From a virus, in IMG/VR virus record IMGVR_UViG_3300048591_001189, positions 1-21,769 of that record: a stretch of 21,769 nt of DNA, one strand, 5' to 3'. The translations under genes and the position numbers were made by a program. Positions 6,828 to 21,273 of this stretch are shown here, one piece after another; within the stretch, counting starts at the first letter, position 1, and every line of letters starts with the position of its first letter. The notes beneath the pieces were generated by a model. It was given only the letters and a program-made list of their open reading frames with translations, ran no database searches and was not told the DNA's origin.

Positions 6828-9800
6828 TTACACTCCTCGCTGCCGCAAGCGCCGCGCCAGTTCATCCAGGAATGCGTCGAGATCGCGGAATCCGATGAAG
6901 CTGGCCCCAGCCATGTTGATCGTGGTGCCTCCCCCGCCACTAATCCCCGCCCCGACCACTTCCAGAGGAGAGTCCGTAGTAAAGACCCTGACGCCGAGAT
7001 TCCTGATCTCCATCAGGCGTTCGTGGATGCCCTGCAGCGCGGGCAGGTACCGGTTCATCTGTTCGTTCAGGCCCGTCGAGTTGCCCACCAGTCCAATGAT
7101 CCCGCGCGTCGTCTCTCCCAGCAGCTTGTTCGTCTTCGCCGTCTGGAAGTTCCCGAAGATGCTGGAGACCATGGTCCCCAGACTGCCAATTGCCCCCAGA
7201 GTCCCCATCAGGCCGGAAGTCGCGGTCCCGAGGGCCGCGTTCAGGCCCCCGGTTGAGTTGACCGCCGTATTGGCAGCGGCGGGCGCAGCGCTCTTGGAAC
7301 CACTCAGAATCTTCCCCAGTGAGCCAAGGCCCGGAAGCTGCGACCCCAACTTAGCCAGACCTGTTCCCATGGACTTGAACAAGCGCTCCAGACCGAGTTG
7401 GGTAAGCCCTTTCGCGAACTCGGTCAGGATCTTCTTCATCCGGTCGCTGAACTTGCCGCCTTCCCACAACAGGTCACCGATCGACTTGGAAACCTGCTGA
7501 AACACTTGCTCCATCCGCCGCCCGACCTCGCTCCACACGGATTCCACCACCTTCCCTGTGTCCTGTGTGCTCTTCTTCAACTTGGCGAGCTGCTCTTCCT
7601 CCGACTTGGAAAGGACCTCGCCAGCCCGCTTTCGTGCCTCCAGAACCTTGATCTGGGCGTCATTGCGCTCGTTGGCGGATCCTTGTTTCAGCACTACCTC
7701 CAGATCCTTCTTCATCTGCTCGAGGTTCGGCCCCTTCTGCACCCCAAGCCGCGAAAGCGCCTCCGCCAGCTCCTTCGCATCGCGAATCTGCTGCCCGAAC
7801 TGGATCTCACCGGCGTTCTCCGCCGCCCGCTGCAAGCTTTGGCTCAGGCTCTCCACGTACTGCTCCACAGACAGCGCCTGGCGGCCGAAGTCCTCCAGGT
7901 TCGGAGGCTCGATCAGCCGCCGCTTTCCCGCATGCACCTCGTCAAGCCCCTGAACCCAGGCGGACACGAACTCCTCGCTCGCTTTCCGGTCCGCCGCCCG
8001 CTGATTCAGGTCTTCGATCGCCTGGCGGAGACTCACCACCGGGCCCAGCGTCCGCTCGGCCGCCTGATAAACCAGCCGCTGCGCCTGCGCCAGATCCTCC
8101 GCCGAGGCCCGCCCGCGCTTGTACGCCTCCTCGATCACCCGGAGGTTCTCCACCGCCCGCTTCTGTCCCGCCTCCAACTCCCGCGCCGACTCGAACCCCA
8201 ACTCCTGATACGCCTGCTTCAGCCGGTCCACTGCGCCTGATGTCTGGCTCGCCTCCGCCTTCACCCCCTGAAGTGCCCGCTGCAGCGCCAACTGTGCCTT
8301 CTGCAAGTCCTCCGCGGTGGCCATGCCTTCCTGATAGGCCTTCTCGATGATGGTGAAGGCTTCCCGCGCCGCTTGGGCATCTGCCTGGACATTCGACGAC
8401 GACTTCACCCCGAGGGTCGTGAATGCCCCCTCCAGCTTGTTGTCAACCTTCGCATCTCCAAGCGTCTTCGCCAGTTGGATCAGCTTCGCGCGGTACTCAT
8501 CGATCGAGATGATCCCCTGCCGGTAGTCCCGGCGCAAATCGCCAATGTCCTGGCCATGCGCCCGCAGCCTGCCTTCCAAAATGCGCAGTGCGCCGATTTC
8601 GCTCTCTACAGCCCGCCTCTGGGCATCCCTCGCGGCATACAGCGCGGTCATGCCGGAAACCACCCTGTAGATCCCCGCCGCCGCACCCAGAGCCGCAATA
8701 CTGACCGCGGTCAGTCCCGCCGCAAGTGCACCAACGCCGGCCGTTGTTCCGGCGAGTGCTGCAGGGGTTAGCCCTGTGGCGATCGCTTGGGCTACGCCGA
8801 GCAGTTTGGCGCCGGCCGCCGCCGCACCCGCAACCAGAAGGGGCCAGGCCTTGATAAGATTCCCGATCTGCCCAGCCATGAAGCCGAGTCCAACCGATGC
8901 GGGTCCGATCACGGCCAGCAATCCCGCAATGCCCACCGTCGCGCCCTTCGCGTAATCAGGCAGTTCCTTGAACTGCTGGGCCAGATCACCCGCAAACCGG
9001 GCGGCTGGAATCAGGCCATCTCGGGTGAGTCGCTCCAGGCCTGATACCAGCACTTCCCCCACCGGTGCCGCGGCCGCAGTGGCCTCGTTCTTCAACTGCC
9101 TCAGCCTGTCCGTCAGCGTGAGCGCATCCTCGGCAGACCGGTTGATCGTTTCGCTGCTCGATCCAACGACATCAAGCAGCTCGGCGAACTCGAAGCGGCC
9201 CTCGCGGATCGCGGCTGCCATGTCGGGGCCAGCCTCTGCCCCAAAGTACTTCATCGCGATTGCCGTCGCTTCTCCCGCCGAGCCGACTGACCGAATCTTT
9301 TCCATCAGGTCCAGCAGTGCGGACTTCGTGTCTGTGACGCCTTCGCGCGAGAAGTTCGTCAGGGCCTGGCGCATGCTGCCCAGCACCAGTTCGGTGTTTA
9401 CGCCTTCCTTCTCGAACTTGCCCATCATCACGGCCGCTTCGCTGAACGAGAAGCCCATTTGGCGGAGCGGTGCGCCGAACTGCACCAGGCGCCCCGCCAA
9501 CTGGTTCACCCCAATGCCGGTCGTCTGGCTCACCTTGAACAGGTAGTCCATGGTGTCCCCGGTCTTTTCAGCGGACACGCCCCAGTCCCCCATCACTCGC
9601 GACGTGGACTGGATCAGGGGTTGCACCTGCTCTCCCGTGATCCGGGCAAGGTTCAGCACCTGAATGGATAGCTGGCGCAGCGGATCACCCGTCAGGCCCA
9701 GCCTGGTATTGAGGTCGGCAATCGCAGTAGCCGCCTCCGCCGCCGAATTGGGCACGCTGCGAAAGACCGCGGTGAAATCCTTTTGAAGTCCATCCAGCGC

Positions 9801-10085
9801 GGCGCCGGTCGCTCCGGTACCGGTCCGGATCGTCGCCATCGCCTGATCCACCTGCAGAGATGCTGCTACCGCCGTCCCTCCCACCGCAAGCAGAGGCACC
9901 GTAAGCCCCTTGGTGATCTGGCTCCCAAAGCCCGAGAGCGAACTGCCGAACTGACGAAGAGATCCGCCGATCCCTTTCGCGTCAGATCCGAACTTCTTCA
10001 GATCGACCGCGGCTGAGCGCAAACCGGACTCGAACCCGCCCTTGTTCAGGCTCAGCTTCGCCGTCAGTTCTGCAATTCTCGACAT
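6828..10085 (-). CDS. Tail tape measure protein (TP901 type)
   Basis: This 1085-residue protein sets tail length and is ejected with the DNA. Residues 60-350 match the phage-TP901-type core (for example a stretch on GLTVPLLAVGGTAVAAS, then SRVMGDWGVSAEKTGDTMDYL). Residues about 380-475 are a run of hydrophobic, Gly/Ala-rich segments able to span or insert into a membrane, as expected for DNA ejection. Residues about 480-880 are long charged helices, probably coiled coil, and include two copies of a roughly 45-residue repeat (about 560-604 and 629-675) ending AEDLQKAQ/AEDLAQAQ. The C-terminal part returns to Gly/Ala-rich sequence. Its position after the gpG/gpT chaperones, which coat it during assembly, is canonical. 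The ATG follows the gpT stop by two bases. Confidence 0.93.
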   Translation of the reverse strand: MSRIAELTAKLSLNKGGFESGLRSAAVDLKKFGSDAKGIGGSLRQFGSSLSGFGSQITKGLTVPLLAVGGTAVAASLQVDQAMATIRTGTGATGAALDGLQKDFTAVFRSVPNSAAEAATAIADLNTRLGLTGDPLRQLSIQVLNLARITGEQVQPLIQSTSRVMGDWGVSAEKTGDTMDYLFKVSQTTGIGVNQLAGRLVQFGAPLRQMGFSFSEAAVMMGKFEKEGVNTELVLGSMRQALTNFSREGVTDTKSALLDLMEKIRSVGSAGEATAIAMKYFGAEAGPDMAAAIREGRFEFAELLDVVGSSSETINRSAEDALTLTDRLRQLKNEATAAAAPVGEVLVSGLERLTRDGLIPAARFAGDLAQQFKELPDYAKGATVGIAGLLAVIGPASVGLGFMAGQIGNLIKAWPLLVAGAAAAGAKLLGVAQAIATGLTPAALAGTTAGVGALAAGLTAVSIAALGAAAGIYRVVSGMTALYAARDAQRRAVESEIGALRILEGRLRAHGQDIGDLRRDYRQGIISIDEYRAKLIQLAKTLGDAKVDNKLEGAFTTLGVKSSSNVQADAQAAREAFTIIEKAYQEGMATAEDLQKAQLALQRALQGVKAEASQTSGAVDRLKQAYQELGFESARELEAGQKRAVENLRVIEEAYKRGRASAEDLAQAQRLVYQAAERTLGPVVSLRQAIEDLNQRAADRKASEEFVSAWVQGLDEVHAGKRRLIEPPNLEDFGRQALSVEQYVESLSQSLQRAAENAGEIQFGQQIRDAKELAEALSRLGVQKGPNLEQMKKDLEVVLKQGSANERNDAQIKVLEARKRAGEVLSKSEEEQLAKLKKSTQDTGKVVESVWSEVGRRMEQVFQQVSKSIGDLLWEGGKFSDRMKKILTEFAKGLTQLGLERLFKSMGTGLAKLGSQLPGLGSLGKILSGSKSAAPAAANTAVNSTGGLNAALGTATSGLMGTLGAIGSLGTMVSSIFGNFQTAKTNKLLGETTRGIIGLVGNSTGLNEQMNRYLPALQGIHERLMEIRNLGVRVFTTDSPLEVVGAGISGGGGTTINMAGASFIGFRDLDAFLDELARRLRQRGV

Positions 10086-10087
10086 GG

Positions 10088-10390
10088 TTACTTCCCAGCC
10101 AGCGCCCGGAACCGGGCGATGATCTCAGCCCCCGAGGTGGGCTTCTTCTTCTCCGGCGGCGCCGTCGGCATGAAATCCCGGATGCTCAGCCCCTTCTGCT
10201 CCGAATACCGGCTAGCAAACAGATAGGGCATCTGCGCCTCACGCCAGTCCTCCACCAGGTCCCGCGCTTTCAAACGCTCGCACAACGCATGGAACTGCCG
10301 GGGCGTCAGCCTCCAGAACTCCTCGTCGCTCAGCCCGAGGTCGAAGCGTCCGACGCCCCATCGATCGAGCCACCATTGCTCCCGGCTTCG
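10088..10390 (-). CDS. Tail assembly chaperone gpT-like domain, made by -1 frameshift as gpGT
   Basis: This frame is open from just after a TGA (10432-10430) to the stop at 10088-10090, but it has no ATG near its beginning. Its first conserved part (SDEEFWRLTPRQFHAL) lies upstream of any usable start and is a hallmark of the gpT-type second domain of tail chaperones. It is in the -1 frame relative to the gpG gene and overlaps its last 61 bases. An exact slippery heptamer (10390-10396) joins the two frames. A ribosome shifting there would add 100 residues (starting RSREQWW) to the first 133 residues of gpG, giving a gpGT fusion of about 233 residues. In lambda and relatives such fusions recruit tail tube subunits to the tape measure. 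A separate start at TTG (10285) would give only 65 residues and lose the conserved motif. Confidence 0.85.
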   Translation of the reverse strand, partial: RSREQWWLDRWGVGRFDLGLSDEEFWRLTPRQFHALCERLKARDLVEDWREAQMPYLFASRYSEQKGLSIRDFMPTAPPEKKKPTSGAEIIARFRALAGK

Positions 10391-10788
10391 AAAGGGGCCT
10401 CGCCATCCCCGGGCGTGTCCGCCTCCTTCTCATCCCCCAGAATCTCGGGCAGAGCCGCGGCGAAGGCCTCCGCCACCACGGCCTCGATCTCCGCGGCGTT
10501 CTTGAACGTCACGTGCTTCCGGAGGTCATCGAATTGCAGATCGGGATACAGGTGCATCAACCCCACAAACAGAAGCACTTTCGTCTGGTAGGCCTGAGCG
10601 CTCTTGGCCCAGAACTCCGCCGCCGGCAACCCCAGCAGCGGCTTGCCGAGACGGTATTCCGCCTCGGCAAAGTCCGCATGCTGGAAGCTCAGCGGGATCG
10701 GGAGTTCGCTGAGCAAGGGCAGGGAAACTGTAAAGACCGGCGCCACAGGATTCGCCGCCGGCGTGGGTGTCCTCTTCTGGCTCTTCAT
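10330..10788 (-). CDS. Tail assembly chaperone gpG-like protein
   Basis: This 152-residue protein sits between the tail tube and tape measure genes, the fixed place of the gpG chaperone. It has a globular part (about 15-115) with sequence such as AEFWAKSAQAYQTKVLLFVGLMHL and YPDLQFDDLRKHVTF. A low-complexity, acidic, Gly/Ser-rich tail (about 120-152) follows. Low-complexity tails after the shift point are common when the long form is made by frameshifting. The ATG is one base after the tail tube stop (TAG C ATG). The shift site falls at codons 132-133 (Pro-Phe), so the last 19 residues are specific to the unshifted form. Family assignment is by position, length and the frameshift cassette. 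Confidence 0.82.
   Translation of the reverse strand: MKSQKRTPTPAANPVAPVFTVSLPLLSELPIPLSFQHADFAEAEYRLGKPLLGLPAAEFWAKSAQAYQTKVLLFVGLMHLYPDLQFDDLRKHVTFKNAAEIEAVVAEAFAAALPEILGDEKEADTPGDGEAPFEAGSNGGSIDGASDASTSG
10390..10396 (-). promoter_or_regulatory. Programmed -1 ribosomal frameshift slippery heptamer
   Basis: On the minus strand the sequence is C CCT TTC in the gpG frame, an exact X XXY YYZ heptamer (CCCTTTC). Slipping one base back re-pairs the tRNAs on CCC TTT and continues in the gpT frame with CGA AGC CGG. It is within the only stretch where both frames are open (10429-10330). Short GC-rich stems could form just downstream (for example GAGC/GCTC around 10371-10385), but I see no strong pseudoknot. 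Confidence 0.82.
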
Positions 10789-10789
10789 G

Positions 10790-11206
10790 CTACGGGGTCA
10801 CCGTCACCGCGCCGTTGATCTTCACCGTCACTTCCACGCTGGCGCCCGCGTTCTTCTGCAGGTTCCACTTCCAGCCGTTCACGCTGCCCTCGAAGTCCAC
10901 CACCGCCGCGCCGGCGTCGGCACAGGTGATCTGGAACTCATCGCTCGAGTTCGGCGTGTTGTAGCTGGTCAGCAGGTGCTGGTGCGTCGGGTCGCTGGGG
11001 TCCCAGAACATGTTGAACGTGATCTCGCCATAGTCCGGCAGACCCGTCACGTACTTCGCGGCCGTGTCGTTCAGCGCCGTCACCTCGATCTGCTGCTTCG
11101 TGCCGGTGGGGCCGCTAATCCCCTCCGCGCCCGGAATCAGCGTGAACACTTCCGCAATCTTCACCTTGAGTTGGGTCCCCTGAGTGGACCAAGCCTGATA
11201 CGGCAT
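10790..11206 (-). CDS. Major tail tube protein
   Basis: This 138-residue protein forms the hexameric rings of the tail tube. The sequence is beta-rich with a tube-like pattern: KIAEVFTLIPGAEGISGP near the start, then KQQIEVTALNDTAAKYVTGL and a central GEITFNMFWDPSDPTHQ. The end is strand-rich, with VDFEGSVNGWKWNLQKNAG. This matches small siphophage tube proteins of the gpV/TUP type. A very strong ribosome-binding site (TAGGAGG, seven bases before the ATG) overlaps the stop codon of the preceding gene and fits its need for high expression. Position between the tail terminator and gpG is canonical. Confidence 0.88.
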   Translation of the reverse strand: MPYQAWSTQGTQLKVKIAEVFTLIPGAEGISGPTGTKQQIEVTALNDTAAKYVTGLPDYGEITFNMFWDPSDPTHQHLLTSYNTPNSSDEFQITCADAGAAVVDFEGSVNGWKWNLQKNAGASVEVTVKINGAVTVTP

Positions 11207-19735: not shown

Positions 19736-20023
19736 TCAGAGAACATCGGTCAGACGGCTCACGCCGCGCGCGGCCAATAGGCCGCGCAAACGAGCCAAAG
19801 CCCGGCAGTGCATCGCATGCACCGCCGGTACCGAGACCTCGCAGATCTCCGCGATCCGCACCAGACTGTGCCCGTCGCCGTATCGCAGGATCAGCACTCT
19901 GCGCTGCCCCAGCGTCAGTTGGGCCATGGCGGACAACAGCAGCCTCTCTCGCTCGGCCGCAGCCGCCATCTCCGAGGGGCAGTACTCAGGACCCGCCTGC
20001 AGTGTCGGAATCTCGACCCGCAT
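19736..20023 (-). CDS. Stand-alone sigma-70 region 4-like protein
   Basis: This 95-residue protein is essentially a sigma region 4: SAMAQLTLGQRRVLILRYGDG, then HSLVRIAEICEVSVPAVHAM (the HTH, about 53-72), then CRALARLRGLL. There is no region 2, so it cannot melt a -10 element by itself. It might bind -35 elements with the core enzyme, act as an appropriator or adaptor, or work with the region-2-bearing factor encoded 740 bases upstream. The ATG is preceded by AGGAAGAGG. It overlaps the end of the small membrane-protein gene by 38 bases. Phage late activators with this architecture are known. Confidence 0.78.
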   Translation of the reverse strand: MRVEIPTLQAGPEYCPSEMAAAAERERLLLSAMAQLTLGQRRVLILRYGDGHSLVRIAEICEVSVPAVHAMHCRALARLRGLLAARGVSRLTDVL

Positions 20024-20763: not shown

Positions 20764-21273
20764 TCACCGAAAGAGCTTCTTGAGCCGGCCGATGCCTTGG
20801 GCTTTCAACTCACTCGCCCGCGGTCCTGAGATTGCCAGTTCCGCCGCCGCCAGCTTGAGCGAATCGCCATCCAGGATCCCGCCGATCACGCGCGCCTCCT
20901 GGGTGGGCAGCGTCCGCAGTGCGGCACGAACCCGCGTTACCCGCTCCGCCCGCTCCGCCAGCTCGTCCGCCGCCGCCCGGCCGTCCCGAATTTCGACTGG
21001 CACTTCCGCATGCTGCGCGTGGATCCAGTTCCGCCTCCGGATCGAGTCCAGCATCGCGCCACGCACCCGCGCCCTGGCAAAGAGCCGGAATGGAGCCCGC
21101 CCCCGTTCGAAACTCCCGGCCGCCTGCACCAGACCCACCATCCCCGCCTGCACCAGGTCCGCCAACTCGATCGACGCCGGCGCTCGCCGCGCCACCATCC
21201 GCGCGATCGGCTCCACCAGATCCAGATTCGCCTCCACCAAACGGTTCCGCCGCGCCAGCGAGTGCCCTGCCAT
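20764..21273 (-). CDS. Phage-encoded small sigma-70-type RNA polymerase sigma factor
   Basis: This 169-residue protein is a compact sigma factor. Region 2 is clear: LVEANLDLVEPIARMVARR, then ELADLVQAGMVGLVQAAGSFE (about 37-56) and FRLFARARVRGAMLDSIRR (62-80), as in FliA/SigF-type factors. Region 4 (about 112-169) contains ALRTLPTQEARVIGGIL and an HTH, LKLAAAELAISGPRASELKAQG. Region 3 is shortened or absent, which makes it smaller than FliA (about 240 residues). It would direct host RNA polymerase to phage promoters. It is preceded by a ~240-base leader with a promoter and two inverted repeats. The ATG is at 21273 with GAGGGG immediately before it, close spacing for a ribosome-binding site. 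Confidence 0.87.
   Translation of the reverse strand: MAGHSLARRNRLVEANLDLVEPIARMVARRAPASIELADLVQAGMVGLVQAAGSFERGRAPFRLFARARVRGAMLDSIRRRNWIHAQHAEVPVEIRDGRAAADELAERAERVTRVRAALRTLPTQEARVIGGILDGDSLKLAAAELAISGPRASELKAQGIGRLKKLFR

Follow-up and report, generated by a model that had tools for sequence, protein, structure and literature searches.

Organization of the probable tail chaperone locus

The stretch of DNA analysed here, referred to as the window, is a 21.8-kb virus record in which the tail genes lie on the minus strand; all features described below are on that strand. A tail tube (major tail) protein is encoded at 10790-11206 (PF16460, E 1.1e-15; phrog_158 major tail protein, E 1.3e-21). 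Directly downstream of it is the open frame of gpG (10330-10788; 152 aa), a putative 0-frame tail assembly chaperone, which has an ATG start and a TGA stop at 10332-10330. The -1 frame behind gpG opens at 10429, after a stop at 10432-10430, runs to 10091 and ends with TAA at 10090-10088, which bears out the opening at 10429 reported by a first-pass annotation of this DNA. By their stop positions, both frames are open across 10333-10429. A tape measure protein (6828-10085; PF10145, E 9.5e-13; phrog_991 tape measure, E 4.2e-35) is encoded directly downstream of T. The gene order of tail tube protein, G, T and tape measure protein, with two overlapping frames of which the second is in -1, is canonical.

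The overlap contains an exact slippery heptamer, C CCT TTC (10396-10390), as the first-pass annotation had claimed, and this is the sole in-phase X XXY YYZ sequence in gpG. Its CCT is Pro132 and its TTC is Phe133 in the 0 frame. The T domain after a -1 shift extends over 10091-10396, with 102 codons from the heptamer, and carries PF09550 and a conserved motif. The predicted gpGT fusion (10091-10788) would be read from 10788 to 10390 in frame 0 and then from 10390 to 10091 in frame -1, with base 10390 read twice; the two frames give 133+100 = 233 aa, in agreement with the length of about 233 residues proposed earlier. No ATG, GTG or TTG occurs in the -1 frame before the TTG at 10285, and the motif SDEEFWRLTPRQFHA lies upstream of this TTG, both as initially described. 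The description of TTG 10285 as the only possible start needs correction, since it is the first of several, followed by TTG 10273, GTG 10255 and ATG 10231.

Identity of the G and T proteins

The T protein of the window matches PF09550 (Phage_TAC_6) with 23.8 bits, narrowly above the cut-off of 23.4, and matches TIGR02216 (rcc01693) below the cut-off. The lambda profile Phage_tail_T (PF06223) gave no match to the window T. Among the 37 aligned T members of the family, PF09550 matches 35 (E <= 0.01) and PF06223 matches 20, with a best E of 1.2e-8. Further, with the T of a relative as query, the T regions of HK022, HK140, mEp235 and mEpX2 were matched (E 7e-4); the HK022 annotation treats this region as part of a joined frameshift product, and the site is G GGA AAG. 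A direct tblastn search of window G or T against deposited phages returned no convincing match.

The window gpG has no Pfam or PHROG match, including PF11836 (Phage_TAC_11/GTA-gp10). Of 33 aligned gpG relatives, 31 match the phrog_2115 tail protein and nine match PF11836. A model of gpG (pLDDT 81.8) matches models of viral tail assembly chaperones (best E 1.5e-4), and a fold search of this model in the PDB gave no match.

The earlier statement that such products are overlooked or truncated by standard gene callers is exemplified by the mEp235 record and by that of a Syntrophomonadaceae phage (PV036453.1). In the latter, C CCA AAC is located between G and T (24397-24696 and 24053-24394), the layout is as in the window, and T appears in the annotation as a separate, shortened hypothetical protein. 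Carnobacterium phage cd2 was also considered as a relative and was rejected because of a weak match (E 2) and a different frame relation. In this phage, two hypothetical proteins overlap (2107-2553 and 2486-2833) in the interval that separates the major tail protein from the next large gene; their frame relation is apparently +1 (or -2), and the pair is perhaps another chaperone frameshift.

Conservation of the heptamer and selection on the T frame

By chance, the overlap would hold one or more in-phase heptamers with a probability of 0.19 under synonymous recoding of gpG, or 0.23 under base shuffling. Thus, the heptamer alone cannot carry the claim, and the case for this putative slip site is a comparative one. 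A second record, near-identical to the window with two mismatches in 6386 bases, has the same frames. Three relatives, whose tail tube proteins are 67-70% identical, are all laid out in this way, each with C CCT TTA or C CCT TTC at the corresponding position, and their T frames have in common a PF at the heptamer followed by WL..W.....DLG.....FW..TPR. In the window, the conserved T residues W..LW....DLG....FW..TPR precede any start codon. When seven loci of this heptamer type are aligned, no invariant block is longer than CCCTTT. At L005 and L006, the heptamer contains TTA, a rare codon there: it accounts for 5 of the 340 leucine codons in the long open frames of L005, and for 4 of the 388 in those of L006.

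Loci L010 and L012 are 57% identical over the 30 nt that precede the heptamer, and this rises to 84% between the heptamer and the end of gpG. The changes in the latter segment fall seven times on third positions of T, three times on third positions of G and never on the remaining position, and most substitutions beyond the end of gpG are at T third positions. This pattern shows that the T frame is under protein selection from the heptamer on, before any possible start codon of its own. The comparison with homologues suggested by the first-pass annotation found no close relative with separated frames and a strong independent start for T. Instead, the upstream ORF is in a frame that can be joined to T by a -1 shift, C CCT TT[A/C] is kept, and conservation of the T frame in the close relatives begins at the heptamer.

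These observations bear on the possibility that T is translated separately, with no fusion, either from TTG 10285 or from a non-standard start such as CTG 10333. Four start codons are indeed available in the T frame, at 10285, 10273, 10255 and 10231, and some distant relatives have an ATG approximately 51 nt before the FW motif. However, the conserved T residues already start at the heptamer, and a protein initiated as far downstream as 10285 would lack them. In addition, the stretch from the heptamer to the FW motif has no ATG, GTG or TTG in the window, and the corresponding stretch has none in 22 of the 42 loci with an assigned site, while a free start leaves the in-phase slip sites unexplained. 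Separate translation is therefore considered highly unlikely.

Since the source of the record is metagenomic, the frame break might also reflect a sequencing or assembly error, or T might be a decaying remnant. The identical frames of the near-identical second record, the same -1 relation at many divergent loci and the concentration of substitutions at T third positions after the end of gpG leave this explanation with negligible probability, and a frameshift between G and T is preferred.

Candidate slip sites in the wider T-domain family

The T domain is encoded at 75 viral loci and at one locus in an Acidobacteria genome. A Pfam search of 297 genomes of the phylum of this one genome match found that genome only, and a genome scan with the tail tube protein found no relative. 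At nearly all T-domain loci, the upstream ORF is in the frame that would be joined to T by a -1 shift; the T frames of L010 and L078 are open far upstream.

Slip-site statistics were obtained for 47 non-redundant T-domain loci by synonymous recoding of gpG in 2000 runs. An in-phase heptamer is present in the overlap at 21 of the 47 loci (recoding mean 6.2), an in-phase C_CCT or C_CCC at 35 (mean 19.9), and at least one of the two at 45, compared with 22.3 expected. The observed numbers were reached in none of the 2000 recodings, and the combined count in the other two phases was 8 and 12 loci. Assignment by hand gave 18 heptamer sites and 24 sites with C_CCY only (17 C_CCT and 7 C_CCC), 16 of the latter 24 being preceded by GGA. 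It left five loci (L072, L074, L078, L079 and L081) without a slip site, at some of which T may have a start of its own. Binomial values for the hand-assigned sites were set aside as circular, since a CCC had been a criterion in choosing them.

The heptamers of the family are CCCTTT[ACG], CCCAAA[AC], GGGAAAC, AAAAAAC and CCCCCCA. At loci L017, L022, L026, L027, L036, L053 and others, which have no X XXY YYZ sequence, C_CCT or C_CCC is in phase, frequently within GGACCC, and the site precedes the FW motif by 72 to 99 nt. Approximately half of the relatives are of this heptamer-less kind, with an in-phase C_CCT or C_CCC at which only the proline tRNA could re-pair, which suggests single-tRNA slippage. 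Evidence for single-tRNA shifting on C_CCY comes from a study in which the tetramers C_CCU and C_CCC were tested in reporters and ranked as the more shift-prone of the proline tetramers (PMC4066793); these are the two forms present in the heptamer-less relatives. It is proposed that the slip site alternates between two-tRNA heptamers and heptamer-less C_CCT or C_CCC, and that a branch of these phages uses natural single-tRNA (proline) frameshifting on C_CCY, a proposal for and against which we consider the chances to be about equal.

Proposed mechanism and comparison with known systems

The locus is very probably a lambda-type G/GT tail assembly chaperone cassette with a -1 frameshift and a predicted gpGT product. 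The frames, the heptamer and its conservation, the selection on the T frame, the domain identity and the gene order are observed; slippage, its rate and a chaperone role are inferred. In principle the cassette is an ordinary one, of a known kind, with a C CCT TTC heptamer.

For most ribosomes, translation would end with gpG at 10332-10330. At C CCT TTC, a minority would slip as the tRNAs for proline and phenylalanine move back by one base (CCT to CCC, TTC to TTT), and would continue in the -1 frame to give the 233-residue gpGT. In lambda, gpG and gpGT differ by a -1 shift, the G part binding the tape measure protein and T binding the tail tube protein (PMC5009743). By analogy, the G part of the window product may bind the tape measure protein and its T part may recruit the tail tube protein.

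With a strong stimulator, 61 of 64 X_XXZ_ZZN heptamers shifted in Escherichia coli reporters; C_CCU_UUC was not among the three failures, and motifs composed of only pyrimidines or only purines were favoured (PMC4066793). CCC_UUU_C sites of fungal viruses were considered as parallels and were rejected, as they have been proposed for +1 shifting (PMC9029208). No downstream fold stimulator is evident in the window (z +0.95 for folds free of pseudoknots), and a Shine-Dalgarno-like AAGGAGG is located 25 nt upstream of the heptamer, outside the usual 6-17 nt. Across the loci, downstream hairpins and upstream Shine-Dalgarno sequences showed no consistent pattern (mean z approximately -1.0). A stimulatory element, either a downstream structure or an upstream Shine-Dalgarno sequence, is not always present in bacteria.

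Slippage of RNA polymerase on CCCCTTT, rather than of the ribosome, would likewise yield a G-T fusion. With four C and three T only, the site falls short of the slippage runs cited, which have >7 A or >8 T (PMC3711429). Moreover, the phase of the site relative to the gpG codons is conserved, as a codon-based mechanism needs, so that polymerase slippage can hardly be given any weight and ribosomal frameshifting remains the preferred reading.

The window shares with lambda G/GT and HK022 gp13/gp14 the order of tail tube protein, G, T and tape measure protein, a T in -1 and an X XXY YYZ site. It differs in its heptamer, C CCT TTC instead of G GGA AAG, as the first-pass annotation had pointed out for the lambda GGGAAAG type. 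It also differs in that the window T has no direct match to these proteins and is linked through PF09550 only, although the T of a relative does match that of HK022. In the RcGTA, tail chaperones 1 and 2 are g10 (rcc01692, PF11836) and rcc01693 (TIGR02216/PF09550). The likeness to the RcGTA consists of the window T matches to PF09550 and, below cut-off, to TIGR02216, together with the PF11836 matches of some gpG relatives, whereas gpG of the window itself does not match PF11836. Similarly, the HK97-like tail assembly chaperone cluster (Antonov et al., 2013) has the same kind of -1 fusion in a different protein subfamily; frameshifting of 6% and 7% was measured for two genes of this cluster (PMC3711429).

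Significance

The predicted frameshift corrects the annotation of the locus; without it, the 233-residue product would go unrecognized or T would shrink to an ORF of 65 residues. It also adds a C CCT TTC example to a family linked to the lambda T and RcGTA tail chaperones. The apparent use of both heptamers and C_CCY sites across the relatives is the most interesting side result. The authors of PRFect reported that most frameshift overlaps in their set had no XXXYYY motif and that the alternatives were hypothetical (PMC10885494). An aligned family with both heptamer and heptamer-less sites provides a test set for the requirements of -1 shifting by bacterial ribosomes.

Other genes in the window

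A tyrosine recombinase (phage integrase, E 1.8e-31) is encoded at 190-753, near the end of the record, which suggests a temperate phage. Downstream of the tail genes, a 420-aa protein with collagen-like triple-helix repeats (881-2143) is possibly a tail fibre. Two sigma-factor-like proteins are also encoded, one with sigma-70 region 2 (20764-21273; E 7.9e-13) and a small one with region 4 (19736-20023; E 7.4e-12).
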